A stretch of DNA of 38,550 nt from positions 16,696 through 55,245 of the forward strand of contig MGMJ01000127.1 in assembly GCA_001794945.1 (NCBI GenBank), given 5' to 3'. Of this stretch, positions 3,245 to 20,455 are shown in pieces. A program made the position numbers and the translations under genes. Under the pieces are notes generated by a model. That model had not been told where the DNA came from. It worked only from the letters and a program-made list of their open reading frames with translations, and did not search any database. Position 1 is the stretch's first letter. Each line of letters starts with the position of its first letter. The stretch comes from Chloroflexi bacterium GWC2_73_18 (GTDB taxonomy: Bacteria; Chloroflexota; Limnocylindria; Limnocylindrales; CSP1-4).

Positions 3245-4441
3245 TCAGCCGGCCAGCCCCCGGTAGACCGCCAGGTGGCGTTCGGCCGATGAGCGCCAGT
3301 CGAAGCGCCGCGCCGTGGCGAAGCCGCCGGCGCGCAACCGCTCGGCCAGGCCGCCCTCCGAGGCCGCACGCAGCAGCGCGCCGGCGAGCGCGCCCTCGTC
3401 GTCCGGCGGCACCAGCAAGGCGTTCTCGCCGTCGACCAGGTACTCGCGGAGGACGCTGATCCCGCTCGCCACGACCGGCAGGCCGGACGCCTGCGCCTCC
3501 AGCACCACGAGGCCCCAGCCCTCCTTGAGCGACGGGAAGGCGAAGACGTCGGCGGCCCGCAGCAGGGCGGTCAGCCGCTCCTGCTCGACCGGGCCGAGGA
3601 GGCGGACGGCCCCGGGCGCCAGCCGGCCCGAGGCGAGGAGCCCCGCCAGCTCGCGATCGAAGCCGTCCCGGTAGGCCCGGTAGTCGAAGAGCGTCTCGCC
3701 GCCGGCGATGACGAGGAGCGGGCGGCGGCCGGTCGCCGCGGCAAGGCGCGGCGCGGCCCGGACGAAGGCGCGCAGCAGCACCAGCGTGTTCTTCCGGGGC
3801 TCGACGCCCCCGACGGCGAGCACGGCGACGGTGCCGTCGAGGCCCAGTCCGGCGCGCAGGCGCTCGCGCTCGGCCGCGTCAGGGGGCGGCCCGAAGCGCG
3901 CCAGGTCGACGCCGTTGTGGACGACCTGCGCGGAGACGCCCCAGTCCTCGGCGAGGAGACGGCGCCACCACTCGCTGACCACGAGCACGACGTCCGGCTC
4001 CACGATCGAGCGGCGCTGGCAGGCGACCAGCGCGGCGCTGGTGAAGTCGTCGACGTGGTGGACCGTGCGCACGAGCGCGGGGATCCGCCCGTCGTCGCGC
4101 AGCCGGAGCAGGGCGTTGGCGCTGATGCAGTCCTCGGCGTGGTAGACGTCGAAACGCGCGCCGGCGGCGAGCGCCACCTCGAGGTGGGCGACGTAGGCCT
4201 CGATGTAGCGCCCGATCCGCTCGTCGATCGGTTCCCCCGACCGTTCGGCGACCGGGATGAAGGTGGCCGGCACGGCGGTCGGGCGGAAGAAGCCGGCGCG
4301 GCCCGGTTTCTCGAGGGCGAAGAGCCGGACCTCCTGGCCCGATTCGGCGAGCGCCTCGGCCAGCTGCAGAGCGTGGACGACGCCGCCGCGCGGGCGGGAC
4401 GAGTAGGTGAAGAGAGCGACGCGCAGCGCCGCGTCAGCCAC
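3245..4441 (-). CDS. MSMEG_0565-type family 4 glycosyltransferase
   Basis: The protein has about 398 residues from a GTG at 4441, which overlaps the fdrA stop by 8 bases. The longer track ORF (start 4657) adds an Arg/Pro-rich shadow. It begins LRVALFTYSSRPRGG and continues with VVHALQLAEAL, the N-terminal signature I associate with the MSMEG_0565 glycosyltransferase family. The GT-B C-terminal domain carries the E-x7-E motif in KEGWGLVVLEAQASGLPVVAS. The acceptor and sugar donor are unknown. Members of this family recur beside the Nit1C/MSMEG_0567-0572 genes, and homologues of those lie at 17-21 kb here. Its position at the end of the comA operon therefore ties the two blocks together. Cytoplasmic, with no membrane segment seen. 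Confidence 0.85.
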   Translation of the reverse strand: MADAALRVALFTYSSRPRGGVVHALQLAEALAESGQEVRLFALEKPGRAGFFRPTAVPATFIPVAERSGEPIDERIGRYIEAYVAHLEVALAAGARFDVYHAEDCISANALLRLRDDGRIPALVRTVHHVDDFTSAALVACQRRSIVEPDVVLVVSEWWRRLLAEDWGVSAQVVHNGVDLARFGPPPDAAERERLRAGLGLDGTVAVLAVGGVEPRKNTLVLLRAFVRAAPRLAAATGRRPLLVIAGGETLFDYRAYRDGFDRELAGLLASGRLAPGAVRLLGPVEQERLTALLRAADVFAFPSLKEGWGLVVLEAQASGLPVVASGISVLREYLVDGENALLVPPDDEGALAGALLRAASEGGLAERLRAGGFATARRFDWRSSAERHLAVYRGLAG

Positions 4442-5993
4442 GCCCGGCCACGATGAGGCCGGCGAGCCGCGCCGCCTGGGCGTTCGTCGGCAGCACGAGG
4501 GCGCCGGCGTCGCGCAGCGCCGCCTCCTGGCGCGGCAGTCCCTGGGGGTCGAGGTCCGTGCCGCAGACGTGAGCGACGACGGCGAGCTCCCGTCCGGCGG
4601 CCTCCGCGGCAGCGCGCGCGGCGGCGATCCCCGGGGCGAGCGCACCCGCCGGGTCATCGTGGGCGCCGTGGCCGAGGACGACGTCGAGCAGGACCACCGC
4701 CGTGGCCGGGTCGGCCGCCTCGTCCGCGAGCCGCTCGAGACGGAGGCGCGGATCGATCATGGGGTGGGGCCGGCCCCGCGTGAACTCCTCCTCGCCCAGG
4801 TCCACGAGGGCGTGACCCTCGCTCCACCAGGGATCGGCGAGACGCAGCGAGGCGTCACCGCCGGCATTCGAGCGGACCGGGCCGAGCTGCCCGTCGCGCA
4901 GCACGAGGAGCGCCTCGTCGCACAGGCTGCCGCCGGAGTAGAGCCCTCGGATGAAGCGCTGGCCGGGCGCCAGTCCGGCCGCCGTCGACGCCGCCATCGC
5001 CTCGAGCGCGCCGGCCGCCGGCGCGAACGGGTCAGCACCGTCGCCGCCGAGGGCGCGAAGCGCCGCCGCGGCGGCCGCCTCGAGCGTCGCCGCGAAGGCC
5101 AGGTTCCCGCCGCCGACGGTCGCCGGCTCGCCGCCCAGGAAGGCGACGACGACCGGCTTGCCGGCCTCACGGGCGAGCGCCAGGACGCGGTCGGCGACCG
5201 CCCGCTGCGGCGGCTTGGAGAGAAGGACCATGACGCGAGTCGCCGGGTCGGCCGCCAGGAACTCGAGACCCGCTCGCGTCGTCAGCCCGCCGACCGCCTC
5301 CGTCAGGTCGCGTCCGCCCGTCCCGATCGCCTGGCTGATGCCGCTCCCGCCGCGGTGGACCAGGACGGTCACCTCCTGGAGCCCGGTCCCCGACCCGGCG
5401 ACGAGGCCGATCGGCCCGCGCCGTACGGCGTTGGCGAAGCCGAGCCCGACGCCGTCGAGGATCGCCGTGCCGGCGCCCGGGCCCATCAGCAGCCGCCCGC
5501 GGGCGCGCGCCTCCTCCTTGAGATCGCGCTCCGCGGTGACGTCGACGTTGTCGCTGAAGAGGAGCACGTGGAGGCCGGCCTCGAGGGCATGGACCGCCTC
5601 CAGCGCCGCGTACTCGCCGGCGACCGACACGACGGCGACCTCGGCGCCCCCCAGCTCGCCGACGGCGGCGCGCAGGGTCCGGGCCTGCCGTCTCGCGGCC
5701 GTGCCCGGCGCCGGCCGCGAAGCCTCGACGAGCAGCTCCTCGGCACGCGCCAGGGCGGCCGCCGCCGTCGCCTCGTCGGCCGCGTCCACGGCGATCACGA
5801 GATCGTCCGGCCGTGCCCCGGCGACCTCGCCGACGAGCATCCCCGCCTCGGCCAGCAGCCGGCGGTTGGCGTCGGTCGCCATGGCCACGGTCGCGCGGCT
5901 GACGCCCGGGAAGGCGGCCAGCTCCTCGGAGAGGCGCATCAGGCGGACCGAGTCCTGGTAGAGCCCCGACTTGCAGCGCGCGGCGACGCTCAC
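4434..5993 (-). CDS. fdrA: FdrA-family protein (AllF-like; succinyl-CoA synthetase fold)
   Basis: This 519-residue protein is close to E. coli FdrA in order and motifs: KSGLYQDSVRLM at the N-terminus, then MGPGAGTAILDGVGLGFAN, GLVAGSGTGLQEVTVLVHRG, SQAIGTGGRDL, and C-terminal VVLLDVVLGHGAHDDP. FdrA proteins resemble the CoA-ligase fold of succinyl-CoA synthetase. With DUF1116 and DUF2877 partners, E. coli FdrA (AllF) has been reported to form an oxamate carbamoyltransferase that makes carbamoyl phosphate. Both partners are in this operon (7015-8460 and 16166-16990). The GTG start overlaps the FmdB-like gene's stop (GTGA). The actual substrate in this CoM-gene context is unknown. Confidence 0.9.
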   Translation of the reverse strand: MSVAARCKSGLYQDSVRLMRLSEELAAFPGVSRATVAMATDANRRLLAEAGMLVGEVAGARPDDLVIAVDAADEATAAAALARAEELLVEASRPAPGTAARRQARTLRAAVGELGGAEVAVVSVAGEYAALEAVHALEAGLHVLLFSDNVDVTAERDLKEEARARGRLLMGPGAGTAILDGVGLGFANAVRRGPIGLVAGSGTGLQEVTVLVHRGGSGISQAIGTGGRDLTEAVGGLTTRAGLEFLAADPATRVMVLLSKPPQRAVADRVLALAREAGKPVVVAFLGGEPATVGGGNLAFAATLEAAAAAALRALGGDGADPFAPAAGALEAMAASTAAGLAPGQRFIRGLYSGGSLCDEALLVLRDGQLGPVRSNAGGDASLRLADPWWSEGHALVDLGEEEFTRGRPHPMIDPRLRLERLADEAADPATAVVLLDVVLGHGAHDDPAGALAPGIAAARAAAEAAGRELAVVAHVCGTDLDPQGLPRQEAALRDAGALVLPTNAQAARLAGLIVAGRG

Positions 5994-6367
5994 GGCGCGC
6001 CTCGACGCTTCGCCGCGCGCGGCTTCCGCTCCTCCTTGACGCCGCGCACCAGCTCCTGGAGCTTCGCCGGCTCGGTGCCGCGCTCGGCCTCGCGGGCGAC
6101 CTCGCGGATGGCGGCATCACCGGTCCGCTCCGCGTACCGCGCGGCGACGTCCCGCGTCAGAGCCCGGCCGTCGGCGGCACGCAGCTCCCCCGGCGCCGGC
6201 GTTCCCGGCGCCGGGCCGCCACGCAGGACCGCGGGCGCGCTGATCCGGCGCGTCATCCGCTCGCTCCCGCAGCGCGCGCAGCGAACGGCCGGCGTCTCGT
6301 CGAGGCGGCGGGTCCAGACCTCGATCCGCTCGCCGCAGGCGGCGCAGTCGTACTCGTGGATCGGCAT
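5990..6367 (-). CDS. FmdB-type zinc-ribbon protein
   Basis: This 125-residue protein opens with MPIHEYDCAACGERIEVW and a second CARCGSE knuckle, the CxxC...CxxC zinc ribbon of the FmdB regulatory family (residues 1-45). The remainder is Arg/Lys/Glu-rich and probably helical or disordered, ending in KPRAAKRRGAP. FmdB ribbons are often co-encoded with amidases and formamidases, where they are presumed regulatory or to bind nucleic acid or a partner protein. Here it is packed between a 215-residue unknown (3-nt gap) and fdrA (4-base overlap). That suggests an accessory role for the FdrA/DUF1116/DUF2877 enzyme. Confidence 0.85.
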   Translation of the reverse strand: MPIHEYDCAACGERIEVWTRRLDETPAVRCARCGSERMTRRISAPAVLRGGPAPGTPAPGELRAADGRALTRDVAARYAERTGDAAIREVAREAERGTEPAKLQELVRGVKEERKPRAAKRRGAP

Positions 6368-6370
6368 CGC

Positions 6371-7018
6371 TCAGCCCCTCCCGCCCCAGCGGCGCCGCGC
6401 TCGGGCGAAGGCCCGCGCCAGCGCCGCGCGGTCGGCGTAGGCGCGCGGCCGGACGAGCGGCCGTGCCCCGCGGATCGGTGCTCCGCTCTGCGGGTCGACG
6501 GGGAGGACCTCGAGCCAGCAGGTCTCTCCTCGCTCCCAGTCGACCGCGGAGTAGCCGTAGAGGGCCACGCCGGCCCGCGTGTGGAGCTCCACGCGCCGGT
6601 AGGTCCGCTGTCCGGCGAAGGTCACCTCGCCGTCGAGCGCCACCAGCCAGGCCTGACCGGCCGCGCGGGCCGCGGCGAAGCGCTCCGCGGTCGTCTCCCG
6701 GATCACCTCGCCACGCAGCTCCTTGAGGCGCAGGTTGAAGGCGGCATCGCGCGCGGCGCCGATGTCGAGCCAGGCACCGCGCGGCAGCTCGAGCTCGACC
6801 AGCCGCCCCTCCACCCAGGCGGTCCCGCGCTCCGCGTAGGCGACCGCCAGGTCGTTCTCGGAGGAGACGTCGCGCAGCCCGTCGGCGAGCCCGCGCACCA
6901 GCTCGACCGACGTCTCGTAGAGGCTCGTCTCGACCCATGCCTGGGCGAAGAAGGCGTCCTCCGCGCGGCGCCAGCGGCGTTCCAGCTCGGGGTCGATGGT
7001 GACCGCCCGCCCGCTCAC
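6371..7018 (-). CDS. Unrecognised 215-residue protein, CoM/fdrA operon
   Basis: I do not recognise this family. The protein is soluble, has no signal peptide or membrane segment, and has a single Cys. It begins with an acidic, aromatic helical part (PELERRWRRAEDAFFAQAWVE) followed by alternating strands (TFAGQRTYRRVELHTR; VALYGYSAVDWERGE) and an Arg-rich C-terminal helix. Its GTG start overlaps the DUF1116 stop (GTGA) and its end lies 3 nt from the FmdB-like gene. Such coupling to DUF1116 and fdrA suggests a structural or assembly subunit of the same complex; this is inference from position only. Confidence 0.75.
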   Translation of the reverse strand: MSGRAVTIDPELERRWRRAEDAFFAQAWVETSLYETSVELVRGLADGLRDVSSENDLAVAYAERGTAWVEGRLVELELPRGAWLDIGAARDAAFNLRLKELRGEVIRETTAERFAAARAAGQAWLVALDGEVTFAGQRTYRRVELHTRAGVALYGYSAVDWERGETCWLEVLPVDPQSGAPIRGARPLVRPRAYADRAALARAFARARRRWGGRG

Positions 7019-8460
7019 GTCGGGCCCTCCTGCACGCCCGCCGCGCTCCCCGGCAGCGCGACCAGGGCGTCACGGAAGACCTCGAGCGGTGCGCGGGCGA
7101 CACCGGCGCCGATCTGGCCGGCCTCCGGGTCGCGCTCGTGGACGACCCCGGTGTCGATGACCGGGACGATGCCGGTCTCCACCACCAGGCGCACGTCGAT
7201 GCCGACCGGCGTCCCGGCGAAGCCGAGGGCCGGGACGGTGAAACCCGGGTGCGCGGCCAGCGTGATCGTGCGCATCTCCTCGGTGACGGCGAGCTGGTCC
7301 GCGACCGAGCCGCCGACGAAGGCGGCCATCGTCGGCGCCGCCGCCAGCGCCATCCCGCCGAGACCGACGACCTCGAGGATGGCGCTGTCGCCGATATCCC
7401 CGGCGGCGTCGGCGACCCCGAAGCCGGAGTGGTAGACCGCCTCGTCCATCGGCACGGCCGGGGCGACCGACCAGCGCTCGCCCAGCCCCCCGACGCGGAG
7501 CGCGAAGTCGACGCCGTTGCGGCTCATCCCGGTCACCACGCTGCTCCAGGGGACGCCGTGGGCCGCGTCGGCGGCGACCCGGCAGGCGGCCATCGTGACG
7601 GTGAGCGAGAAGAGCGAGTTCGCCTCCAGGAGGCGGACGGCGCGCGCCGCGACCGGACCCGGGACGCCGGCCTCCAGGAGCGGGCCAGCGAGACCGCGCA
7701 GGAGGAGCGCCGTGGTGGCGACGCAGCGCGCATGCAGCTCGTCGCCCATCTGGAGCGACTGGGCGAACAGGCCGAAGAGGTCGATCCCGCCGGCCCGGTC
7801 GAGCGCCGCCGAGAGCGTGCCAGCCAGCTCGTCGTGGAACCAGCGGAGCCGATCGAGCGCCCCGGCATCGGGGTTGCCGAGCCAGAGACTCCGTCCGCGC
7901 CCCTCGTTGATCGGGCTGAAGGCGGCCAGGCCGCTCGCCTCGTCGCGCGCGACGTGGACCGCCATCGAGGGCGAGACGACCGCCGCCATGGGGCAGGCGA
8001 CGGCGTGGTCGTACGCCGGCGCGAGCCGGATCTCGCCCGACTGGAGCGCCCGTACTGCGCTGTCCACGTCGGGCGCCCAGCCTTCGAAGACGGCGGCCCA
8101 GGCAGCAGCCCGCCGGTGGGGACCGCACATCCGCGCGTACCCGATCGGCGGCCCGGCGTGGAGGAGGAGCCGTCCATCCCGGAGCGCCGGGACCACTTCC
8201 CCGGCAGGCCGCACGCCGACCCAGCGCGGCCGGGCCCGGAAGAGCCGGGCCATCGTCTCGGCGTTCGCCGCCGCGATCCGCTCCCGCACGGCGCGATCGG
8301 CCACCAGGAGTCGCGCCAGGTCGGCGTCGCCGCCGGCCGGCGGGCGCCACGCGACCTCGGTGACGGGGACGCCCTGGGCGCGCAGTGCCTCGGCGAAGAC
8401 GTCGAGGCCGACGTTGACGACGCGGGGCGGCGTCGCGGCCAGGAGCCGGCTCTCGCTCAC
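7015..8460 (-). CDS. DUF1116 protein (YlbE/AllG-like)
   Basis: This 481-residue protein matches the DUF1116 family, the invariable neighbour of FdrA. The N-terminal ANAETMARLFRARPRWVGV, GPPIGYARMCGPHRRA and the later SRNGVDFALRVGGLGERW are typical. In E. coli the DUF1116 protein (YlbE, AllG) is a required part of the oxamate carbamoyltransferase. No membrane helices are convincing, so it is probably cytoplasmic. The GTG start lies 4 nt after the OsmC stop. Length agrees with the family (about 420-480). Its location inside an operon that also encodes ComA is the unusual point. Confidence 0.88.
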   Translation of the reverse strand: MSESRLLAATPPRVVNVGLDVFAEALRAQGVPVTEVAWRPPAGGDADLARLLVADRAVRERIAAANAETMARLFRARPRWVGVRPAGEVVPALRDGRLLLHAGPPIGYARMCGPHRRAAAWAAVFEGWAPDVDSAVRALQSGEIRLAPAYDHAVACPMAAVVSPSMAVHVARDEASGLAAFSPINEGRGRSLWLGNPDAGALDRLRWFHDELAGTLSAALDRAGGIDLFGLFAQSLQMGDELHARCVATTALLLRGLAGPLLEAGVPGPVAARAVRLLEANSLFSLTVTMAACRVAADAAHGVPWSSVVTGMSRNGVDFALRVGGLGERWSVAPAVPMDEAVYHSGFGVADAAGDIGDSAILEVVGLGGMALAAAPTMAAFVGGSVADQLAVTEEMRTITLAAHPGFTVPALGFAGTPVGIDVRLVVETGIVPVIDTGVVHERDPEAGQIGAGVARAPLEVFRDALVALPGSAAGVQEGPT

Positions 8461-8464
8461 CGTC

Positions 8465-8926
8465 TCAGGGCTCCGGCGCTCCGCCGCGCACCTCGACGAG
8501 GACGCCCGGGCCGATGGTCCGGGTCACCCAGCAAACCTCCTCGGCGAGACGCAGGATGGCGGCGAACTCGCCGGGATCCGTCCTCGCCAGCGAACTGCTG
8601 GCAGCGACCTCGAGGCGGCGGTAGCGCCGCCCGGGCCGGTCGTACTCGCCGCCGACGCTGACCTCGAGGTCGACCAGCTCGCGGCGGCGCTTGTGCGCGG
8701 CCCAGGCGACGGCCATGGCGAAACAGGAGGCGACGCCGGCAAAGAGGAGCTCGGAGGGCATCGGCCCGGAGTCGGTGCCGCCGTCCTCGGGGGGCTCGTC
8801 GGAGACGAGCGTGAAGCGCCCGTCGCGCAGGTCGAGGTCGACGCGGTAGCCGTCTCGCCAGCGCGCCCGGACGCGTCGGCGGACCGCTCGACCGGACTCG
8901 AGGGCGGGGTCTACGCCGAGCTCCAA
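8465..8926 (-). CDS. OsmC/Ohr-family thiol peroxidase-like protein
   Basis: This OsmC-fold protein has about 153 residues. The two family cysteines are present in GVASCFAMAVAWAAHKR and RLAEEVCWVTRTIG. The motif GPMPSELLFAGVASC is the standard 'P-x-E-L-L-xx-xxAxC' helix. I chose the TTG at 8926 because AGGGAG sits 5 nt before it and no ATG or GTG fits near the family start; the track ORF (to 9562) is a shadow extension. It overlaps the 88-residue gene by 16 bases. OsmC proteins reduce organic hydroperoxides using a thiol pair, or act in related thiol chemistry. In an operon that appears to make a small thiol, protection of or reaction with that thiol is plausible. Confidence 0.85.
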   Translation of the reverse strand: MELGVDPALESGRAVRRRVRARWRDGYRVDLDLRDGRFTLVSDEPPEDGGTDSGPMPSELLFAGVASCFAMAVAWAAHKRRRELVDLEVSVGGEYDRPGRRYRRLEVAASSSLARTDPGEFAAILRLAEEVCWVTRTIGPGVLVEVRGGAPEP

Positions 8927-9177
8927 CGCTGCTCCCTGCGGATCAGGAGCCGGCGCAGCACCCAGCGGCGGAGCGGCGCCGGCGTGAGGCGGTAGCCGGT
9001 CACGAAGACGGTCCGCACGACGGCGTGAAGGGCACCCCGCCGGATCGGTGCGGCGGTGGTACCCGGGTACTTGCGGGCGAGGTCGAGCTGCGCCGCCTCG
9101 ATCAGCATCTTCTCCGACCAGGCGCGGAAGCGCTGCAGCGGCGAGGCCGGCGGCGCCTTGCGGGTGACGACCGGCAT
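8911..9177 (-). CDS. Unrecognised 88-residue basic protein
   Basis: This short gene has a clear GGGGAGGAGG Shine-Dalgarno just before its ATG and sits 12 nt after the flavoenzyme stop. It overlaps the OsmC gene by 16 bases, so it is very likely translated. The protein is basic, lacks Cys, and carries SEKMLIEAAQLDLARKYPG near the middle, then an Arg-rich C-terminus (LRRWVLRRLLIRREQRW) that could be an amphipathic helix at a membrane or nucleic acid. No family is recognised. Given the coupling to the disulfide reductase, it could be a small accessory subunit. Confidence 0.7.
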   Translation of the reverse strand: MPVVTRKAPPASPLQRFRAWSEKMLIEAAQLDLARKYPGTTAAPIRRGALHAVVRTVFVTGYRLTPAPLRRWVLRRLLIRREQRWSSA

Positions 9178-9189
9178 GGGCCTCCTCCC

Positions 9190-10530
9190 CTACTTCCCCG
9201 CGGCCGCCGCCACCGCGTTGCGGGCGGCGACCGCGATCGGCTCGTTGAGCGCCCCGATCGGCGGGGAGTAGACGTTCTCCATCGTCGCCAGCTCGTCGAT
9301 GGTGGCGTGCTTGCGCATGGCGAAGGCCATGAAGTCGGCGCGCTCCTTCACCCCGTCGCCACCGGCGAACTGGATGCCGATCACCTCGCGCGTCGCCGGG
9401 TCGGCCAGCATCTTGACGCGCATCGGCTCGACCTTCGGGTGGTAACGGGCGCAGCTGATCCCCTTCGCCTCGCCGATGATGTAGGGGCGGCCGAGCGCGC
9501 GCGCGAGCGTCTCGGTGATCAGCACGCCCCCGACCTGGGTGGTCCCGACCTCCATCGCCCACGGGACGTGTACCGCGCGGTAGTGTCGCTCGTCGCCGGC
9601 GGCGTTCGCCCCGGCGACGCGGCCCTGCGTGTAGGCGTAGGTGCCCGGCATGAGCCGCACCGGCACCTCGGCGATCGCCTGCGGCGTCTCGACGACGGCA
9701 CCCGCGGCGAAGACGTCCGCGACGTTGGTCCGCATCGCGTCGTCGACGACGATGCCGCCCGCGCTGCCGAGCCGGACCCCGATCTGGCGAGCGAGGCGCG
9801 TGTCAGGCTTCTGGTCGGCCGCCATGAACGCCATCTGGCAGGCGATCTCCCCGGGGGCGGTGATGGCGCTGACGAGACGACCGTCCCGGCCCTTCAGCTC
9901 GCGCAGTCGCGTCGAGAGCAGGAAGCGGACGCCGAGCTTCTCGAGGCTCTCCTGGCCCATCTGCATGACGTCCGGGTCGGCGAACTCGGCGAGCAGCCAG
10001 GGTTCCTCGTCGATGACGGTCACCTGCTTGCCGCGATGGGCCAGGCCGGTCGCCAGCTCGAGGCCGACCGGCCGGGCCTTCCAGACGACGACGGAGTCGA
10101 CGCCGTCCAGCGCGCGGTCGATCTCGCGGGCGCGGTCGATGTCCTTGACGAAGTGGATCCCCTCGAGCTCGATGCCCGGGATCTCGGGGAGGACGTACTG
10201 CCAGCCCGTGCAGAGGATCAGCCGGTCGAACGGGAGGCGCTCGCCGCCGCCCATCTCCACCGTGCGGGAGGCCATGTCGATCCGCTCGACGAAGGTCGAG
10301 AGGCGAAGATCGAGGCCGATCTCCTCGGTGTAGAACTCGGACTTCTGCAGGAAGAGGTCATCGAAGCTGGCGACCTCGCGGCCGAAGACGTAGGGGATGC
10401 CGCAGGGGCTGTAGGCGGTGTGGGCGAGGTCCCCGATCAGCGTCACCTCGAGCGACCGGTCGTACTGCTTCGCCGTCGACGCGGCCGAGATGCCGGCCGC
10501 GCCGGCGCCGATGACGACGATGCGCGCCAT
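9190..10530 (-). CDS. CoA-disulfide-reductase-like flavoprotein with atypical NAD site
   Basis: This 446-residue FAD-dependent pyridine nucleotide-disulfide oxidoreductase begins VVIGAGAAGISAA (FAD dinucleotide fold). It has a single redox Cys in SPCGIPY at residue 43, the position used by CoA-disulfide reductases that work through a Cys-S-S-CoA intermediate. Two hallmarks are altered. The expected GxGxxG of the NAD(P)H domain reads VVVWKARPVGLELA, and the usual 'VFAAGD' FAD-binding Asp reads VFAAGAVVE. The C-terminal dimerisation domain is complete (YSPPIGALNEPI). AGGAGG precedes the ATG. In the operon it follows the PLP enzyme, so it is a candidate for the final reductive step of a CoM-type thiol route, perhaps with a non-standard electron donor. 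Confidence 0.85.
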   Translation of the reverse strand: MARIVVIGAGAAGISAASTAKQYDRSLEVTLIGDLAHTAYSPCGIPYVFGREVASFDDLFLQKSEFYTEEIGLDLRLSTFVERIDMASRTVEMGGGERLPFDRLILCTGWQYVLPEIPGIELEGIHFVKDIDRAREIDRALDGVDSVVVWKARPVGLELATGLAHRGKQVTVIDEEPWLLAEFADPDVMQMGQESLEKLGVRFLLSTRLRELKGRDGRLVSAITAPGEIACQMAFMAADQKPDTRLARQIGVRLGSAGGIVVDDAMRTNVADVFAAGAVVETPQAIAEVPVRLMPGTYAYTQGRVAGANAAGDERHYRAVHVPWAMEVGTTQVGGVLITETLARALGRPYIIGEAKGISCARYHPKVEPMRVKMLADPATREVIGIQFAGGDGVKERADFMAFAMRKHATIDELATMENVYSPPIGALNEPIAVAARNAVAAAAGK

Positions 10531-10544
10531 GCTGTCGCCTCCTC

Positions 10545-11585
10545 TCAGGTCGGGGCACCCATCATAGCCGGAGCACTCTCCGCGTAGTGCCGATGACGGG
10601 CGTAGAGGATCGGCTCGCCGCCCGTGTGCAGGAAGACGACCGTCGCCGCGCGCGGGATCTCGCCGCGGCGCACCAGGTCGATCAGCCCGGCCAGCGCCTT
10701 GGCCGTGTAGACCGGGTCGAGGACGAGTCCCTCGCGCTCGTAGGCGAGCCGGAGCGCGGCATCGCCCTCGGGCGAGGCGAGCCCGAAACCCGGGCCGAGG
10801 TAGCGCTCCTCGACGTGGACCTGCCGGCGGCCGATGCGCACGCCAAGGCGGAGGAGGCGCGCCGTCCCGCGGGCGAGATCGAGGAGTCGCTCGACACTCT
10901 CCGCACGCGGCCGGCTGACGAGGATGCCGAGGACCCGGTACGGCGCCCCGAGCCAGGCGGCGCCGGCGATCAGCCCCGCCTGCGTCCCGCAGGAGCCGCT
11001 CGCCGTCACCAGCAGGTCGGGCCGGACGTCGAGCGCCACGAGCTGCGCCGCCAGCTCGGCACTCGCCTCGACGTAGCCGGCGTCGCCGAGCGGGGTCGCC
11101 CCGCCGCGGCGGATGAGGCAGGGGCGACGCCCGGCGGTCCGCAGCTCGGCGGTCAGGGCATCGGCCGCCGGCTCGGTCGACTCTCGGTCATCGCTCCCGG
11201 TGAAGACGAGCCGCGCGCCGGCGAGGGTGTCGAGGAGCAGGTTCCCCTCGCGCGTCTCAGGCGGCCGCCCGTAGAGGACGGCGATCGGCTCGAGCCCGGC
11301 GACGCGCGCCGCGGCCACCGCGGTGCGCACGCAGTTCGACTGCGGGCCACCGACGGCGATCAGCGTGTCGGCCCGGCGGCGCAGCGCGTCGCCCAGCAGG
11401 AACTCGAGCTTGCGCACCTTGTTGCCGCCGCCGGCGAAGCCGGTCAGGTCGTCGCGCTTCAGCAACAGCCGCGCCAGGCCGACCGCCGCGGCCAGCCGCG
11501 GTGCGTCGTGGAGCGGGGTCGGCAGGTGCGCCAGGGGGAAGCGGGGCAACTCGACGGGGAGCGGACGCTGGCCAGGGAAGCCCAT
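10545..11585 (-). CDS. PLP enzyme, D-cysteine desulfhydrase/ACC deaminase family (XcbE-like)
   Basis: This 346-residue fold-type II PLP enzyme has the Schiff-base lysine in FAGGGNKVRKLEFLLG, a following GGPQSNCVRTAVAAA phosphate and substrate loop, and SGSCGTQAGLIAGA. Family length and order match DcyD-like proteins. In isolation it would be called D-cysteine desulfhydrase. Next to comA and two fumarase-superfamily lyases, it matches instead the PLP enzyme of the bacterial CoM pathway, which thiolates a vinyl- or aldehyde-type sulfonate. The assignment rests on neighbourhood, since no substrate-determining residue could be checked here. It starts 12 nt after the upstream lyase and ends 14 nt before the flavoenzyme. 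Confidence 0.85.
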   Translation of the reverse strand: MGFPGQRPLPVELPRFPLAHLPTPLHDAPRLAAAVGLARLLLKRDDLTGFAGGGNKVRKLEFLLGDALRRRADTLIAVGGPQSNCVRTAVAAARVAGLEPIAVLYGRPPETREGNLLLDTLAGARLVFTGSDDRESTEPAADALTAELRTAGRRPCLIRRGGATPLGDAGYVEASAELAAQLVALDVRPDLLVTASGSCGTQAGLIAGAAWLGAPYRVLGILVSRPRAESVERLLDLARGTARLLRLGVRIGRRQVHVEERYLGPGFGLASPEGDAALRLAYEREGLVLDPVYTAKALAGLIDLVRRGEIPRAATVVFLHTGGEPILYARHRHYAESAPAMMGAPT

Positions 11586-11597
11586 CGGCCGTGCTTC

Positions 11598-12935
11598 TCA
11601 GCCGTCGAGGACGCGGTCGACGAGCGCCTCGGCGAGACCGGTCGAGGGCGTGGAGAGAAGCCGCTCGAACTCGTCGGCCGCGAGGAGCCCGCCGGTCACC
11701 GGGTCCTCGCGCAGCTCGTCGCGGAGCGCCCGACCGGCGCCGCGGGCACGAGCGGCGGCGGCGTGTACCCTCGCGTGGGCCGTCTGCTTGCCGACGAGCC
11801 GGGCGAGCGCCAGCATCACCGCCTCGGCGGCGACCTCCTCCTGGTGCGCCTCGAGGTTGCGGCGCATCGCCTCGGCCCGTACCTCCAGACCGTCGAGCAG
11901 CTCGCGGGCGAGGCGGAGCGCGGCGCCGGTCGCCAGGCACGCCCCGGGGATCGCCGCCCACTCGCTCTTCCAGCTTCGCCCGTCGCGCTCGTGGTCGCCG
12001 ACGAGCGCCTCGAGCAACAGGTCGGCGTCACGGCGCACCAGCCGCGCCAGGGTGCCGAGGTGCTCGGCACGCTCGGGGTTCCGCTTCTGGGGCATGGTGA
12101 TGCTGCCGACGTCGTCGCCCCGGGCCGGCTCGGCCAGCTCGCCGATCTCGGGCCGCTGCAGGTTGTAGACCTCGTGGCCGATCCGGTCGAGGGCGCCGGT
12201 GACGAGCGCCAGCCAGCCGACGAACTCGGCGAAGCGGTCGCGCGCCGCCGTCCAGCTGATCGCCGGTGTGCCGAGGCCGAGGCGCGCCAGGACGCGCGCC
12301 TGCAACTCGAGGCCGCGCGGCCCGTAGCCGGAGAGCGTGCCGACGCCGCCGGCGAGCTGCCCGACCCCCAGCCGGGGCCGCATCTGCGTCAGCCGCTCGC
12401 GGTGGCGCCGCAGCTCGTCGAGCCAGCCGGCCGCCTTGAAGCCGAAGGTGATCGGCAGACCGGCCTGCCCGTGGGTGCGACCGAGCATCGGCGTCGAGCG
12501 ATGCGCCCGTGCCAGCTCGGCGAGGCGGCCCTCGATCGCATCGAGATCGCGCTCGGCGAGATCGGCGACGGCGAGCAGCGTCCGCGCGCACCAGGTATCG
12601 GCGATGTCCTGGACGGTCGCCCCGTAGCAGATCCACTCCCCGGCGCCGTCCCGGCAGCGTCGCGCCCGCTCGCGGATCAGGCCGAGCAGCGAGTGTCCCG
12701 TCTCGGCGTAGCCGCGCCGGACCTCGTCGAGGTCGACGGGCTCGCCACGCATCACCCGCGCGATCTCCGGCCCCGCCACGGCGGGGATGATGCCGACCGC
12801 CGCCTCCTCCTCCGCCAGCACGGCGAGGACCTCGCACCAGCCCCGTGTCCGCCCTTCGTCGTCGAAGAGCGTGCGCAGCTCGTCGCTCCCCCAGGCCGTG
12901 CCGAAGATCCGCGAGTCGATCGGATGGACCGACAT
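11598..12935 (-). CDS. Aspartase/fumarase-superfamily lyase, PurB/PcaB-like (XcbC/XcbD candidate)
   Basis: This 445-residue protein has intact superfamily landmarks: GRTHGQAGLPITFGFKAAG (general-acid histidine region) and the signature GSITMPQKRNPE with the catalytic serine of the mobile loop, plus GATVQDIADT. The architecture is closest to adenylosuccinate lyase and 3-carboxymuconate cycloisomerase. In the bacterial CoM pathway, distinct members of this superfamily act after phosphosulfolactate synthase, one eliminating phosphate from phosphosulfolactate. The position two genes after comA suggests one of these roles, but which cannot be told from sequence alone. A true PurB is less likely because no purine genes are adjacent. 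It is 3 nt from the preceding lyase gene. Confidence 0.82.
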   Translation of the reverse strand: MSVHPIDSRIFGTAWGSDELRTLFDDEGRTRGWCEVLAVLAEEEAAVGIIPAVAGPEIARVMRGEPVDLDEVRRGYAETGHSLLGLIRERARRCRDGAGEWICYGATVQDIADTWCARTLLAVADLAERDLDAIEGRLAELARAHRSTPMLGRTHGQAGLPITFGFKAAGWLDELRRHRERLTQMRPRLGVGQLAGGVGTLSGYGPRGLELQARVLARLGLGTPAISWTAARDRFAEFVGWLALVTGALDRIGHEVYNLQRPEIGELAEPARGDDVGSITMPQKRNPERAEHLGTLARLVRRDADLLLEALVGDHERDGRSWKSEWAAIPGACLATGAALRLARELLDGLEVRAEAMRRNLEAHQEEVAAEAVMLALARLVGKQTAHARVHAAAARARGAGRALRDELREDPVTGGLLAADEFERLLSTPSTGLAEALVDRVLDG

Positions 12936-12938
12936 CGC

Positions 12939-14441
12939 TCAGCCGGCGGCCGCCGCGCGCGCACGCTCCAGGAGGCGCATCTCCGCCGCGGCCAGCGCCG
13001 CGGCACGCGCCGCCGTCCAGCTCCGCTGGCGTCGCAGCGATCGACGCTGCTCGGTGAGCAGCGTCCGGACCGCCGCTGGCGCGGCGCCTCCGATGCCGGT
13101 CCGGCGGGCCACGGCGGCACCGGGATCGAGCGCCTCCCGCACGGCCGCGTCGTCGAGCCCGAGCGGCACGCCGGCGACCTCGCGCGCCGCCATGTCGAGC
13201 GCGGCGGCGTCGATCCCGTCCTCCTCCCGACCAGCGGCGAGAGCGAGCCGGACCGCCTCCCCCACGATCCGGTGCGCCGTCCCGAACGGGATGCCGCGGC
13301 GCATCATGATCAGCTCGGCCAGGTCGTTGGCGGCCAGGTAGCCCCGGCGCGCGGCGGCCGCCAGGCGCTCGCGGTCGAAGCGGAGGCCGTCGACCACCTC
13401 GGCCAGAAGCGCGGCCGCCTGCTCGGCCAGCTCGAGCGCGGCGGGCACCTCGTCCTGGGCGAAGATGCGGGGGTCGGGTTGCCCGCTCGCCGTCCGCGCC
13501 ACGGCCGCCGCCCCGGCCAGCCGACCGATGAGGCGTCCGGCGACGCCGCGCACGAAGACGAGCGCGTAGGGGTTCTTCTTCTGCGGCATCGCCAGGCTGA
13601 CCCGGCTCGCCCGGTCGGCCAGCTCGACGAAGCCGAACTCCCGCGTCCCCCAGATCTGGAGGTCCTCGGCGAGCCGATCGAGGGCGAGGCCGACGCTGGC
13701 CGCGATCGCGCTCAGCTCGACCGCCAGGTCGGCCTGCCAGTTGGCGTCGCGGGCGTGGGGGACGACCCCGGCGAAACCCAGCGACTCCGCCAGCGCGGCG
13801 CGGTCGAGCGGCAGCGTGGCGCCGCTGGTGCAGCCGGCGCCGGCGGGGCTCAGGTCGACCCGCCCGAAGGCGGCGTGAAGCCGGGCCGCGTCGCGTCGGA
13901 GCGGGTAGGCGTAGCCGAGGAGTGCATGGGCGAGCGTCGTCGGCTGCGCCGCCTGCCAGTACGTGTAGTCGACTGCCAGGGTCCGCATGTGCCGCGCCGC
14001 CAGCGTCACCAGCACCGTCTGCAGCCGCTCGAGGGCGCCGGCGAGGGAGAGGAGACGGCGCCGCGCGGCCAGGTGGAAGGCGACCGTGGCGGCCTCTCGT
14101 CGCGGACGGCCCACGAGCAGGTAGCCGGCGTCGCCCCCGATCCTCTCGCGCAGCCGGGCCTCGCGGTTCATGACCAGGTCACCCTGCGCCGGGTCGAGGC
14201 CGGCCCCTCTCGCGCCCGGCCCGCCCCCGCCCGTCGCGCCCGAGGCGCCCAGCTCGAGCAGGGCGACGACCAAACGCCTGCCGGCGTCGGCCGGCACATG
14301 TCCGCCATCGAGGAGCGTCAGGACGTGCGCCAGGTCGGCGAGCGTCAGCTCGGGGAGGAGCGAGGGCGCCGCCGCCAGCTCGAGCCGGTAGGCGGAGCGG
14401 ATCAGCTCGGCGGACGGGCCCTCGACGAGCCGGCCGCTCAC
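12939..14441 (-). CDS. Argininosuccinate-lyase-like protein with altered active site (XcbC/XcbD candidate)
   Basis: This 500-residue protein has the overall layout of argininosuccinate lyase: GDLVMNREARLRERIGG, PTTLAHALLGYAYP and SLAMPQKKNPYALVFVRG. Key positions differ from genuine ArgH. The substrate loop 'GRSRND' is GRPRRE, the 'THLQ' histidine is Tyr in DYTYWQAAQP, and the glycine before the loop serine is Val (VSLAMPQKKNP), while the serine itself remains. Such changes suggest a different substrate. The GTG start lies 7 nt after the comA stop. With the neighbouring PurB-like lyase it forms the pair expected for phosphate elimination and the next step of the bacterial CoM pathway. It should not be annotated as argH. 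Confidence 0.82.
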   Translation of the reverse strand: MSGRLVEGPSAELIRSAYRLELAAAPSLLPELTLADLAHVLTLLDGGHVPADAGRRLVVALLELGASGATGGGGPGARGAGLDPAQGDLVMNREARLRERIGGDAGYLLVGRPRREAATVAFHLAARRRLLSLAGALERLQTVLVTLAARHMRTLAVDYTYWQAAQPTTLAHALLGYAYPLRRDAARLHAAFGRVDLSPAGAGCTSGATLPLDRAALAESLGFAGVVPHARDANWQADLAVELSAIAASVGLALDRLAEDLQIWGTREFGFVELADRASRVSLAMPQKKNPYALVFVRGVAGRLIGRLAGAAAVARTASGQPDPRIFAQDEVPAALELAEQAAALLAEVVDGLRFDRERLAAAARRGYLAANDLAELIMMRRGIPFGTAHRIVGEAVRLALAAGREEDGIDAAALDMAAREVAGVPLGLDDAAVREALDPGAAVARRTGIGGAAPAAVRTLLTEQRRSLRRQRSWTAARAAALAAAEMRLLERARAAAAG

Positions 14442-14448
14442 GGTTCGC

Positions 14449-15285
14449 TCACCGGCGCGGCCGCCCTGGCGCGCCGGCCGGCTCCCGCTGCAGCGCCGCC
14501 CGCAGCGTCTCGAAGCGGAGGCCGCGTCGGAGCGCCTCCAGCGCGAGCACCTCGCCGGGAGCGATGTTGGCGAGGTTGACGTTAGCCCCGAGGCGAAGGA
14601 TCAGGTAGGCCTGCTGGTCGTGCAGCGGCGCCTCCCAGAGGATGCGGGACCGGTCGGGCAGCGCCGCCAGAAGCGCGTCCAGGATCCCCTCGTCGACGTG
14701 GCCGGTCGCGTCGAAGATCCCGGTGCCCCGTCCCGACTCGCGCGCCTCGATCGTGACGAAGGCGACGCCGAGCGCCAGGTCGGCCCCCGCCCGGTCCGCC
14801 ATCTCGGCGGGCGTCAGCTGCCGCCGCGGGTCCTTGCGTCCCACCTCGCTGATGACCGTGAGCCCGGCGTCGAGCGCCCGTTCGATCGCCTCCTGCCGCG
14901 ACGCGGCCGGGAGATCGACGGTGCCGTCGCTCACCTCGACGCCGGTGAACCCCAGCTCGCAGGCGCGACGCAGGAACGCCGCCAGGTGCCCGGTCGCCCA
15001 CGCCGCCTCGAGCAGCGTGCCGCCGGGGTAGACGACGATCCCGGCCTCGACGAGCCGCGCGACCTTCCGCGCCAGGAGCGCTCCGTCGAGCGCGGCCGAG
15101 CTCCCGAACCCGAGCTTGACGTGATCGACCAGGTGACCCGCGGTCTCCGCCAGGTCGTCGACGGCCCGGAGGCCGAGTCCCTTGTCGATGATGGCCGTGA
15201 TCCCGGTGGCCCGGGGCTTCTCTGTGCGCGCCCCGAGGAGCGCCCCGATCGCCTCGCCCCAGGCGCCGTCGTGTCGCCCGCTCAT
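14449..15285 (-). CDS. comA: Phosphosulfolactate synthase (ComA/XcbB-like)
   Basis: This 278-residue TIM-barrel enzyme adds sulfite to phosphoenolpyruvate to give phosphosulfolactate, the first committed step of CoM and sulfolactate synthesis. Family motifs are well preserved: DKGLGLRAVDDL, VDHVKLGFGSSAAL, VYPGGTLLEAAW, GFTGVEVSDGTVDLP and VISEVGRKDPR. The ATG at 15285 overlaps the upstream stop (ATGA); the 767-residue track ORF is a shadow extension. Bacteria also use ComA for sulfolactate (as in spores) and for other sulfonates, so product identity needs the rest of the pathway. Here that is supplied by the two lyases, the PLP enzyme and the reductase encoded directly downstream. Confidence 0.92.
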   Translation of the reverse strand: MSGRHDGAWGEAIGALLGARTEKPRATGITAIIDKGLGLRAVDDLAETAGHLVDHVKLGFGSSAALDGALLARKVARLVEAGIVVYPGGTLLEAAWATGHLAAFLRRACELGFTGVEVSDGTVDLPAASRQEAIERALDAGLTVISEVGRKDPRRQLTPAEMADRAGADLALGVAFVTIEARESGRGTGIFDATGHVDEGILDALLAALPDRSRILWEAPLHDQQAYLILRLGANVNLANIAPGEVLALEALRRGLRFETLRAALQREPAGAPGRPRR

Positions 15286-16160
15286 GGCGTCCCGACCAGC
15301 TCGCGGAGACCGGCCGCAACGTCCTCCAGGGTGGCGCCCCAGGGGACGACGACGACCTGTCCATCGCGCTCGATCCCGTGCTCGAGAAGGCAGCACTTCA
15401 GGAGCGTCGGCTCGCTGCGCGCGCCGGCGAGGCGGCGCGGGCAGATCTCGGCCGAGGGCGGCACGTCGCCGTAGAGATGCCGGTGGATCTGTCGGCTCCG
15501 CTCGCAGCCGACGAGCGTCCAGTCGGCGCGCGGCGGGCGCTCCTCGAGGAAGTGGACCGGGGCGTCGAGCGCCTCGAACCCGGACGAGCGGCAGGGGAAG
15601 AGGTAGCCGCCGCGGCCGGGGCCGGCCGCCGCCGCCAGGTCGCGCAGGTCGATCCGCTCGAGCTCGGGGCGTGTCGCCGCCAGCGGCGCCGTCGCCAGCA
15701 CCCGCTCGACCAGGTCCCACAGCTTGGGCGGCTCGGGGGGCGCCACCTCGACGACGCGGACGACCGCCGGGTCGGGGTGGGCGATGAAGTTGACGTGCTC
15801 GTAGCGCCCGAGGACGACCAGGGTCTCGGCCGGGCCGACCCCGAGCTCGGCCGCCCTGGCCGCCAGCGCGGACGGAAGGCCGGTGTCGACCGAGCGGTCC
15901 ACGACGAGGTGCGTCCGTTCGGGCGGTGAGAGCCAGGTCGCGCCGGTGATCGGCGCGAAGAGCGGCTCGCGGCTCGCCTTCTCGACCGCGGCCACGGCCA
16001 CCGCTCCGCCGGTGCGGAAGACGATGAAGTCGGTGTGGCGGTAGGCCTCGCGCCCGACGATCGTCGTCAGCCCCTGCTCGGTGAGGGGGAAGTCGGCCAC
16101 CTGGAAACTGACGCGCCGGTACGGGAGCGGCACGAGGTTGCGCACGCCGGGAGCTTCCAT
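15282..16160 (-). CDS. Unrecognised 292-residue protein preceding comA
   Basis: I cannot assign a family. The ATG at 16160 (MEAPGVRNLVPLPYRRV) is chosen over the track start because it falls 5 nt after the DUF2877 stop. It overlaps comA by ATGA, so translation is coupled to it. The protein is soluble, with alternating strands and helices in the first 140 residues (YRHTDFIVFRTGGAVAVAAVEK; HLVVDRSVDTGLPSALAARAAELG). The second half contains five cysteines in GYLFPCRSSGFE, LVGCERSRQIH, SAEICPRRLAG and LLKCCLLEHGIE. Those Cys with the adjacent His could bind metal or an Fe-S cluster. As an intimate partner of comA it may be a pathway-specific enzyme or sulfite/thiol carrier. Confidence 0.75.
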   Translation of the reverse strand: MEAPGVRNLVPLPYRRVSFQVADFPLTEQGLTTIVGREAYRHTDFIVFRTGGAVAVAAVEKASREPLFAPITGATWLSPPERTHLVVDRSVDTGLPSALAARAAELGVGPAETLVVLGRYEHVNFIAHPDPAVVRVVEVAPPEPPKLWDLVERVLATAPLAATRPELERIDLRDLAAAAGPGRGGYLFPCRSSGFEALDAPVHFLEERPPRADWTLVGCERSRQIHRHLYGDVPPSAEICPRRLAGARSEPTLLKCCLLEHGIERDGQVVVVPWGATLEDVAAGLRELVGTP

Positions 16161-16165
16161 CGCCG

Positions 16166-16990
16166 TCAGACGACCGGCACGACGGCCGCGGCGAGGCGCC
16201 ACGCCCGTCCCGCCAGGCGCACGCCCGCCAGCATATCCGCGCCCGACGTCTCACCGATCGCCAGGAGCGGCGCCGGGTCGGGCGGCGCCGTCGCTCCGAG
16301 GCGGAGGAGTGCCTCCAGCAGGCCGGCCAGCGGCGCCGTGACCTCGCCGTCAGCCGCCGCCGCCAGGAGCTGGCCGGCGAGCCGCGTCGTGTGCGGCAGG
16401 GCCTCCGCCACGACCGCCGCCCGGAGGCTGTTCCCCGGGCCGGCGAGCCCGGCCGCCTCGACCCACGCCCCGAAGGCGAGAGCCGCAGCGAGCAGATCGT
16501 CTCCCGATGGGGTGAGTCCCGGCCCGAGGCCGGCCAGCGGCCCGGCCGCAGTCGCGGCTGCACCGGCGTCGCCGGCAGCGAGGGCCGACTCGAGGCCGGC
16601 GAGGGAGGCCGCGCTTGCCACCGCGGCGATGCCGCGCTCGAGGCCGGGGGAGAGGGCCGCCCGTCGCTCGACGAGGTCGAGCCGTCGCGCGAGCTCGGCC
16701 GGCCCCACGGCCCCGGAGGCGGGCACCGGGCGCGCTCGCCAGCGGACGGCACCGTGGAGGTCCAGGCGAGGCGGGGCGCTCACCTGGCGCAGGTCGTACG
16801 GGGACGTCCGGTCGAGCCGGGCGGTGAAGGGCCCGTCGGGGAGGTCGTGCCGGACGAGCGAGACGAGCGTCCCGTCTCCCGTCCGCGCCAGGATCAGCGC
16901 CCGTTCGAAACGCGCGTGGAGCGACCAGTCACCACCCGCCTCGAGCAGGCGCGCCGCCCGATCGTCGAGGCTGATCACGCGGATACTCAT
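16166..16990 (-). CDS. DUF2877 protein (YlbF/AllH-like)
   Basis: This 274-residue DUF2877 protein carries the family fingerprint LAGLGPGLTPSGDDLLAAAL at about residues 155-174. DUF2877 proteins occur with FdrA and DUF1116; in E. coli the three (AllF, AllG, AllH) were reported to form oxamate carbamoyltransferase. Here it is the first gene of the large operon, about 8.5 kb ahead of DUF1116 and about 11 kb ahead of fdrA, with the CoM-type genes in between. The TAGCAT hexamer ends 7 nt before its ATG, so the transcript is probably leaderless. Cytoplasmic, no membrane segment. Confidence 0.88.
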   Translation of the reverse strand: MSIRVISLDDRAARLLEAGGDWSLHARFERALILARTGDGTLVSLVRHDLPDGPFTARLDRTSPYDLRQVSAPPRLDLHGAVRWRARPVPASGAVGPAELARRLDLVERRAALSPGLERGIAAVASAASLAGLESALAAGDAGAAATAAGPLAGLGPGLTPSGDDLLAAALAFGAWVEAAGLAGPGNSLRAAVVAEALPHTTRLAGQLLAAAADGEVTAPLAGLLEALLRLGATAPPDPAPLLAIGETSGADMLAGVRLAGRAWRLAAAVVPVV

Positions 16991-17998: not shown

Positions 17999-18001
17999 CG
18001 A

Positions 18002-18493
18002 TCAGGCGCCCTCGCCCGGCTCTTCGCTCCAGCCCGCCCGCATCAGCCGGTGCGGGACGCCGGCGTACTCGACCATCTCGCCGATGCCGACCCACCCGAC
18101 GTGCTCGAAGAAGCGGACGTTCTGGGGCTGGATGTAGGCCAGGAAGACGCGCGCCCCGCGCCGGCGCACCTCGTCCTCAGCCGTCTTCACCAGGGCCGGG
18201 GCGACGCGCAGCCGCGTGCCCCGGTAGCCTCCGGCGACGGCCAGCCGGCCACCGAACCAGGTGCCGTCGGGGCGACGGAAGCAGCGCACCGCGCCCACCA
18301 CGTCGCCGGCCGGCTGGCAGATGGCGACGATGTGGAGCGTCCCGGGATCGTCATCGAACTCGTCGACGTCGCTCTCCGCGAAGAGGCCCTGTTCGCGGAC
18401 GAAGGCCTCTTCGCGGATCGCGTAGTGCGCCCGAAGTTCCTCGGCGGACCCGGCAGGCCGGCAGACGAGGGTACGCCCCGGTTCCGCCGTCAC
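18002..18493 (-). CDS. MSMEG_0567/Sll0786-type GNAT acetyltransferase (NitE-like)
   Basis: This GNAT-fold protein has about 163 residues: YAIREEAFVREQGLF, DDPGTLHIVAICQPAGDVVGAVR, the acetyl-CoA loop region GGYRGTRLRVAPALV, and a C-terminal VRFFEHVGWVGIGEM typical of this family. The start is taken at a GTG (18493); the 439-residue track ORF is a shadow extension over the upstream membrane gene. In Nit1C clusters the GNAT and AIR-synthase proteins sit together or are fused, and here they are tail-to-tail with 3 bp between stops. Substrate unknown. Confidence 0.87.
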   Translation of the reverse strand: MTAEPGRTLVCRPAGSAEELRAHYAIREEAFVREQGLFAESDVDEFDDDPGTLHIVAICQPAGDVVGAVRCFRRPDGTWFGGRLAVAGGYRGTRLRVAPALVKTAEDEVRRRGARVFLAYIQPQNVRFFEHVGWVGIGEMVEYAGVPHRLMRAGWSEEPGEGA

Positions 18494-18531
18494 GCCGGAC
18501 CCGCGTCTCGAGGATGTCCCGCCTAGAAGAG

Positions 18532-19092: not shown

Positions 19093-19142
19093 GAGTCACT
19101 CCTTCCCATCGGGCGACGGGCTTGAGCGCCCGCCGCTCTCGA

Positions 19143-19182: not shown

Positions 19183-19224
19183 TCGGCTCGAGTCCCGGCG
19201 GCACGGCGCCCCGGCCGGCGCCTC

Positions 19225-20373: not shown

Positions 20374-20455
20374 CGTCGGGCTCCTCGTCGGATGAAATGA
20401 CCGGGGCGGCCGTCCGACCGGAGCGGCCGCCCGCGTCGTTCCGGGTCTGTCGACC

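Follow-up and report, generated by a model that had tools for sequence, protein, structure and literature searches.

The stretch of DNA analysed here (the window) comprises 38,550 nucleotides of contig MGMJ01000127.1 from Chloroflexi bacterium GWC2_73_18, a metagenome-assembled genome (MAG) of the order Limnocylindrales. It contains a minus-strand operon of 14 tightly packed genes (3245–16990), with intergenic spacings of -8 to +14 nt that varied with the choice of start codon, in which a soil bacterium combines a full set of genes for coenzyme M (CoM) biosynthesis with genes predicted to free nitrogen from carbamoyl compounds or compounds of the nitrile type. In order of transcription, these genes encode AllH, XcbA (DUF7714), ComA/XcbB, XcbC, XcbD, XcbE and a single-Cys flavin (FAD) reductase resembling CoA-disulfide reductase (CoADR), followed by an 88-aa protein, OsmC, AllG, a 215-aa protein, an FmdB-type zinc ribbon, AllF and a glycosyltransferase. 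The codon bias of the named minus-strand genes was of the coding type. The original prediction for this stretch, made from its sequence, had named ComA, two lyases, an enzyme dependent on pyridoxal phosphate (PLP), the single-Cys reductase, OsmC and AllF, AllG and AllH; all were recovered on the minus strand by family matches. The tight packing it described was confirmed for all 14 genes, the glycosyltransferase included. The cluster did not end at 16990, as had been supposed; genes of the nitrogen cluster Nit1C are interleaved with the CoM operon (3245–4441 and 17020–21880), and a carbamate kinase gene lies at 26509–27525. This Nit1C core, and the absence of any nitrilase from the window's Nit1C block, had both been overlooked and provide the best clue to function. 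Chimerism of the MAG is unlikely, because the same arrangement was found in an isolate (Terrabacter MAHUQ-38), on a complete plasmid of Methylocystis and in two further MAGs that belong to the window's own family.

Judged by family matches, the CoM set of the window is complete (XcbA-E). XcbA (15282–16160; like all features below, on the minus strand unless stated) scored 359 bits against NF052538 (cut-off 150, E = 1e-107); the identification of this gene, upstream of ComA, amends the original prediction and completes the set. The putative phosphosulfolactate synthase, ComA/XcbB (14452–15285), matched PF02679 (E = 4e-80) and passed the curated cut-off of TIGR03849 (294 bits over 280), while XcbD, the putative 3-sulfopropionylcysteine synthase (11598–12935), passed that of NF052536 (624 bits over 600). 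XcbC, which would act on 2-phosphosulfolactate (12939–14441; NF052535, E = 2e-146), and XcbE, the putative PLP enzyme of CoM synthesis (10545–11585; NF052537, E = 3e-99), matched their own families best, with scores of 488 and 332 bits that were below the NCBIfam curated cut-offs (575 and 450). Among columns that epoxide-type enzymes hold invariant (97%), the window retained 35 of 38 in XcbB, 47 of 53 in XcbC, 82 of 83 in XcbD and 43 of 50 in XcbE; the outgroup enzymes ArgH, PurB and DcyD kept 34, 40.5 and 37 in this comparison. Trees were built for XcbC and XcbD, and both lyases fell inside the bacterial CoM family; XcbE was assessed from its family score and its conserved columns only. A grouping of the lyases with housekeeping enzymes, which had been named beforehand as an outcome that would speak against the prediction, was not found in either tree. 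A housekeeping identity as ArgH or PurB was rejected, since the genome holds separate copies of both and the Xcb lyases fall elsewhere. With five Xcb genes, the predicted capacity for CoM biosynthesis is well supported, and these loci would be expected to make CoM. The Xcb enzymes of Xanthobacter make CoM (cited in PMC12068725); CoM biosynthesis genes have so far been reported from methanogens and alkene-using bacteria only (PMC11507031). Searches with the XcbA family also gave a signal below cut-off in a methanogen control genome, Methanosarcina acetivorans, and XcbA/DUF7714 may therefore have an archaeal relative. No ComA was found in phage records.

All five Nit1C core families were present in the window with scores above their curated cut-offs. 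The MSMEG_0565-family glycosyltransferase is the last gene of the operon (3245–4441; TIGR04047, 403 bits over 260). Beyond the first gene lie a divergent sll0787-family protein resembling aminoimidazole ribonucleotide (AIR) synthase, of the PurM/HypE superfamily (17020–17998, plus strand, start approximate; TIGR04049, 325 bits over 321; HypE structure 2z1e, E = 2e-7), an MSMEG_0567-family GNAT acetyltransferase (18002–18580, start approximate; TIGR04045, 110 bits over 68), an MSMEG_0568-family radical SAM protein (19225–20373; TIGR04043, 485 bits over 304) and the MSMEG_0572/Sll0783 nitrogen-starvation response protein (20456–20944; TIGR04044, 224 bits over 110). The block is completed by an Amidohydrolase_2 protein (20993–21880; PF04909). 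It has homologues in 7 of the 24 loci compared that are of the AllF/AllG type defined below, and in 7 of the 18 ordinary ones.

In Pseudomonas, Nit1C serves the release of nitrogen from cyanide and nitriles, and growth on cyanide proceeds through the nitrilase NitC, which frees ammonia from hydroxynitriles (PMC11049912). When ordinary Nit1C loci were assembled for comparison (13 from actinomycetes and five from proteobacteria, about 20 kb each), all 18 contained a nitrilase and none contained AllF, AllG or Xcb genes. Conversely, the AllF/AllG-type cluster itself was without nitrilase except in Methylocystis. In a search of 20 genomes carrying this cluster with the nitrilase of an actinobacterial cluster as query, no match exceeded 37% identity, against 54–100% in ordinary Nit1C genomes; as the query was actinobacterial, this is weaker evidence for other phyla. 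An even draw of 297 actinomycete genomes contained XcbA in 12, the MSMEG_0568 radical SAM gene in 45 and AllG in 73. By score, the 45 radical SAM genomes split into 39 ordinary and six divergent; all six divergent genes shared their contig with XcbA, at a distance of no more than about 17 kb, while none of the 39 ordinary genes had XcbA on its contig (Fisher p = 1e-9, which is descriptive, given that the split was drawn after the scores were seen and that the cluster had previously been recognised in two of the six genomes, namely the centre genome and G188). Radical SAM genes of the MSMEG_0568 family were also present on 513 plasmid records, of which 373 were from Klebsiella.

To place the window among CoM loci generally, the XcbA sequences of the window, of two relatives and of four named plasmid loci were aligned, and GTDB genomes were scanned. 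This produced 154 XcbA relatives, the best 80 of which were kept and typed by their neighbouring genes. Epoxide-type loci, with EtnE, CoA-transferases, acetate-CoA ligase or the like, accounted for 52 of the 80. In 14 others these genes were replaced by AllF/AllG/AllH or Nit1C genes, with one (L090, a 4.3-kb contig) assigned by hand because it was marked only by an AIR-synthase-like gene and a channel homologue; more such loci were found elsewhere. The remaining 14 had markers of neither kind, or were too short, and none of the 80 combined markers of both kinds. Loci of the AllF/AllG-Nit1C type carried a set consisting of AllF/AllG, the Nit1C core, the CoADR-like reductase and OsmC, and were distributed across Chloroflexota, Actinomycetota and Myxococcota and on a plasmid from an alphaproteobacterium; the order of their genes varied. 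A genome-wide search for EtnE in 15 such genomes returned only short or partial matches of at most 36% identity, when full-length positive controls in three epoxide-type genomes had 51–78%; the window's own genome, a MAG that is 89.6% complete, gave a partial match of 29%. The CoA-transferase pair and acetate-CoA ligase were likewise absent from beside the xcb genes in these clusters. The sole mixed record was a plasmid of Methylocystis iwaonis, which had AllF, AllG, Nit1C with a nitrilase, a full xcb set and an EtnE remnant of 114 aa (L014:7665–8005); this remnant suggests that the site formerly held an epoxide-type cluster.

In the window's class, XcbA was present in 3 of 177 genomes, two of which also had MSMEG_0568 while the contig of the third ended before the gene; the only positive in a sample of Anaerolineae genomes was the centre genome itself, so this sample was little informative. 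One Anaerolineales genome (G193, locus L113) had an operon of AllG, AllF, Nit1C, reductase and OsmC genes without xcb; its xcb genes were situated some 80 kb from the operon and on a different contig. Since linkage was not needed for co-occurrence here, this genome argues for a functional relationship over hitch-hiking. A neighbourhood conserved in no related genome had likewise been named beforehand as an outcome against the prediction; instead, the neighbourhood recurs in many genomes and is not due to chance.

The three All-type subunit families of the original prediction, AllF, AllG and AllH, co-occur in the operon of the window. The AllF (FdrA) homologue (4434–5993) matched NF004760 above cut-off (E = 9e-140) and FdrA structure 3dmy (E = 4e-74); AllG (7015–8460) matched PF06545, or DUF1116 (E = 6e-65; structure 3clq), and AllH, the first gene of the operon (16166–16990), matched PF11392 (E = 2e-17). 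The carbamate kinase (26509–27525; TIGR00746, 377 bits over 358) adjoins AllF in actinobacterial loci L064, L075 and L114–L116. In E. coli, the transcarbamylase AllFGH acts by phosphorolysis in concert with carbamate kinase, such that oxalurate is converted to carbamoyl phosphate and then to ATP, CO2 and ammonia (PMC11326118). In a tree with 23 comparison rows, including E. coli YlbE and the YahG type, the 15 AllG rows from AllF/AllG-Nit1C-type loci (Chloroflexota, Myxococcota, Actinomycetota and Methylocystis) formed a single clade with support of 100/98, and an oxamate-type identity for the window's AllG was rejected on this basis. The proposed coupling of CoM to carbamoyl transfer has genetic support, through one operon recurring in four phyla, but AllG lies outside the oxamate clade. 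The history of the CoM genes was different: XcbC and XcbD of AllF/AllG-type loci were scattered among epoxide-type and other CoM clusters, requiring four and three changes respectively (all trees except those of AllG and the reductase being quick searches), and a single clade for AllF/AllG-type XcbD was rejected by the approximately unbiased (AU) test (p = 0.0002). Because AllG forms one clade and XcbD does not, the trees are most plainly read as showing a single AllG lineage that gained CoM biosynthesis on repeated occasions. Both AllG subtypes can occur in one genome; in Actinophytocola (L143, G182:C98:108000–119000), oxamate-type AllF/AllG/AllH genes lie a few kb from the CoM-linked set.

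Among the remaining members, the reductase (9190–10530) matched TIGR03385 (E = 2e-67) with 228 bits against the CoA-disulfide reductase equivalog cut-off of 579, despite its YSPCGIPY motif; it is probably a different enzyme of the CoADR superfamily and a candidate CoM-disulfide reductase. Orthologues were found in 16 AllF/AllG-type loci, with 42–57% identity to the window's enzyme in distant loci and the motif YSPCGIP wherever the N-terminus was complete; none was found in ordinary Nit1C loci. Their sister group was the reductase that accompanies epoxide clusters (92/92). The OsmC-family protein (8465–8914, start approximate; PF02566, E = 3e-15) has homologues in most AllF/AllG-Nit1C-type loci. 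The 88-aa protein (8911–9177) is conserved in L005/L015, as judged from its translation and the paired open reading frame in L005, and homologues of the FmdB-family protein (5990–6367; TIGR02605) adjoin AllF in L113 and L061. The 215-aa protein (6371–7018) belongs to no Pfam or NCBIfam family; among the loci compared, phmmer found homologues nowhere but in AllF/AllG-Nit1C-type loci (L113, L011/L014, L115, L075 and L064/L143), and its structural model was weak (predicted local distance difference test, pLDDT, 64), with no significant match. Within the Nit1C block, a six-helix membrane protein (18532–19092) matched no Pfam family, UreI/AmiS included, although its L089 counterpart weakly matched DUF981. 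The AlphaFold model of the window's protein (pLDDT 76) is predicted to adopt the fold of UreI/AmiS-like urea channels (Foldseek: 6nsj, E = 4e-4; 3ux4, template-modelling score 0.74), with the acetate channel SatP close behind, and its cargo may be urea, an amide or a small carboxylate. The AIR-synthase-like protein matched PurL, HypE and PurM. HypE dehydrates a carbamoyl thioester, and it was this chemistry that suggested a thiol-bound carbamoyl group here.

Like the xcb/xec clusters of Xanthobacter autotrophicus Py2, the cluster has XcbA-E homologues in one run, close to which lies a single-Cys FAD reductase from broadly the same family; unlike them, it lacks EtnE/XecA, 2-ketopropyl-CoM oxidoreductase/carboxylase (2-KPCC), the pair of short-chain dehydrogenases (SDR), CoA-transferases and acetate-CoA ligase, and adds AllF/G/H, OsmC and the Nit1C core. 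With known Nit1C clusters (nitBCDEFGH of Pseudomonas pseudoalcaligenes CECT 5344, sll0783–0787 of Synechocystis and MSMEG_0565–0572) it shares the MSMEG_0565, 0567, 0568, 0572 and sll0787 families, but it has no nitrilase and gains CoM synthesis, AllF/G/H, the CoADR-like reductase, OsmC and the predicted urea-type channel. The oxamic transcarbamylase of E. coli, AllFGH with AllK, has the same three subunit families and a carbamate kinase, whereas the window's AllG belongs to a separate clade, is not beside allantoin genes and is tied to CoM and Nit1C genes. As in methanogens, ComA would perform the first step of CoM synthesis, but the later steps are of the bacterial XcbC-E type.

The evidence is best accommodated by a nitrilase-free, CoM-requiring pathway of nitrogen release, a variant of the Nit1C scavenging cluster, to which a probability of roughly 0.5 is assigned. 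That unrelated bacteria of four phyla repeat the combination of CoM and nitrogen-release genes makes a hitherto undescribed role for CoM in nitrogen metabolism probable. XcbB-E, with XcbA, would make CoM from phosphoenolpyruvate, sulfite and cysteine, after the Xanthobacter pathway. Small amides, ureas or nitriles would be taken up, with the UreI-like channel as a possible route, and the core proteins of Nit1C (the radical SAM protein, the AIR-synthase-like protein, the GNAT protein and the amidohydrolase) would convert them to an amide- or nitrile-level intermediate. Where nitrilase releases the nitrogen in ordinary Nit1C, the CoM thiol would here take up the carbamoyl (C-N) unit, most simply as S-carbamoyl-CoM, and an AllFGH-type complex would phosphorolyse the CoM-bound carbamoyl group to carbamoyl phosphate, from which carbamate kinase would generate ATP, CO2 and ammonia. 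The single-Cys reductase and OsmC would keep CoM reduced. Both the direction of flow and the exit of nitrogen as carbamoyl phosphate, with CoM needed for it, are what we infer from the gene set. The more specific proposition, that CoM acts catalytically to carry a C1-N unit (carbamoyl or cyano), a use involving neither methyl or alkyl groups nor epoxides, and that a CoM-specific AllFGH replaces nitrilase by yielding carbamoyl phosphate, is offered tentatively, as less likely than not. S-carbamoyl-CoM as the intermediate is a doubtful conjecture, and the substrate too is conjectural.

Several observations weigh against this pathway. It is deduced from genes, and the set includes no known CoM-using enzyme. 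We know of no substrate or reaction given to the non-nitrilase genes of Nit1C since the cluster's description in 2005. XcbC and XcbE scored below their curated cut-offs, and across AllF/AllG-Nit1C-type loci taken together just 26 of the 50 conserved columns of XcbE are retained; from the window's own column counts, XcbE is the least certain step of the putative CoM synthesis. The C-terminal Cys motif of HypE was sought in the AIR-synthase-like protein and not found. Carbamate kinase and AllH are missing from some loci, partly through contig ends, and Methylocystis iwaonis holds a nitrilase together with the AllF/AllG/CoM module, so replacement is not strict.

The same genes could be explained otherwise. 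CoM might be a protective low-molecular-weight thiol only, standing outside the catalytic route; aided by the reductase and OsmC, it would scavenge an electrophile such as cyanide or isocyanate that the Nit1C/AllFGH pathway generates or encounters. These two proteins belong to thiol-redox families and are tied to AllF/AllG-type loci while missing from ordinary Nit1C. This is rather unlikely, however, when ordinary Nit1C clusters run without CoM and actinobacteria retain a dedicated CoM set in exactly this variant, though many already have mycothiol. A biosynthetic cluster, in which carbamate kinase supplies carbamoyl phosphate and the product is a secreted and perhaps glycosylated sulfonate metabolite that incorporates CoM and a carbamoyl group, would account for the glycosyltransferase and GNAT protein among the core members, and E. 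coli AllFGH was indeed assayed in the carbamoylating direction (PMC11326118). Against this, the Nit1C cluster of Pseudomonas is associated with the release of nitrogen (PMC11049912), the predicted channel is of the uptake type, and no dedicated exporter common to the loci was noticed, although no systematic search was made; such a product is considered distinctly unlikely. The deficits of XcbC and XcbE relative to their cut-offs, and the 26 columns of XcbE, could also mean that the last steps have drifted and the Xcb enzymes make a related thiol or sulfonate. Yet the window itself keeps 43 of 50 columns in XcbE and 82 of 83 in XcbD, and XcbC and XcbD of AllF/AllG-type loci fall among epoxide-type ones at several places in the trees, making drift quite improbable.

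Two further possibilities deny any functional link. An oxamate carbamoyltransferase operon might have been invaded once by a mobile CoM cassette, leaving coincidental neighbours, and CoM genes do move on plasmids; but the AllG clade is apart from the oxamate type, gene orders differ among phyla and the CoM genes joined more than once, so this is very improbable. Ordinary CoM-dependent epoxide or alkene metabolism, with nitrogen genes adjacent by accident, would agree with all well-studied bacterial CoM clusters, which serve epoxides (including loci L007–L010). It is the most improbable of all and was rejected following the negative genome-wide search for EtnE in 15 genomes; the cluster has neither CoA-transferases nor acetate-CoA ligase, and its association with nitrogen genes recurs in four phyla.

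If the nitrogen-release pathway is correct, CoM would acquire another role in bacteria, that of nitrogen scavenging in four phyla or more. The Nit1C cluster would gain a testable biochemistry, and AllFGH would become one branch of a wider carbamoyl-transfer family. No report joining CoM with Nit1C, DUF1116 or nitrogen starvation was found in the open literature, most subscription papers being outside the search.

Some minor features of these loci were also recorded. A gene for a NicO-type nickel/cobalt transporter lies inside actinobacterial AllF/AllG-type clusters (L079:8807–9823, L085 and L091), and a helix-turn-helix (HTH)-cupin regulator recurs in such clusters outside Chloroflexota (L079:10307–10945, with homologues in L085, L089, L091, L114, L115 and L011). 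A third kind of CoM cluster was observed in Anaerolineales (L017, L019, L020 at 1–20849, L040 and L048), where xcb genes stand beside several MtaA/MtbA-like methyltransferases, an MtrH-like protein, an MtbC-type corrinoid protein and a RACo-type activator. EtnE was absent from three genomes of this kind (G191, G192 and G194) by genome search, and from their gene content these clusters look like a bacterial system for methylcorrinoid:CoM methyl transfer.

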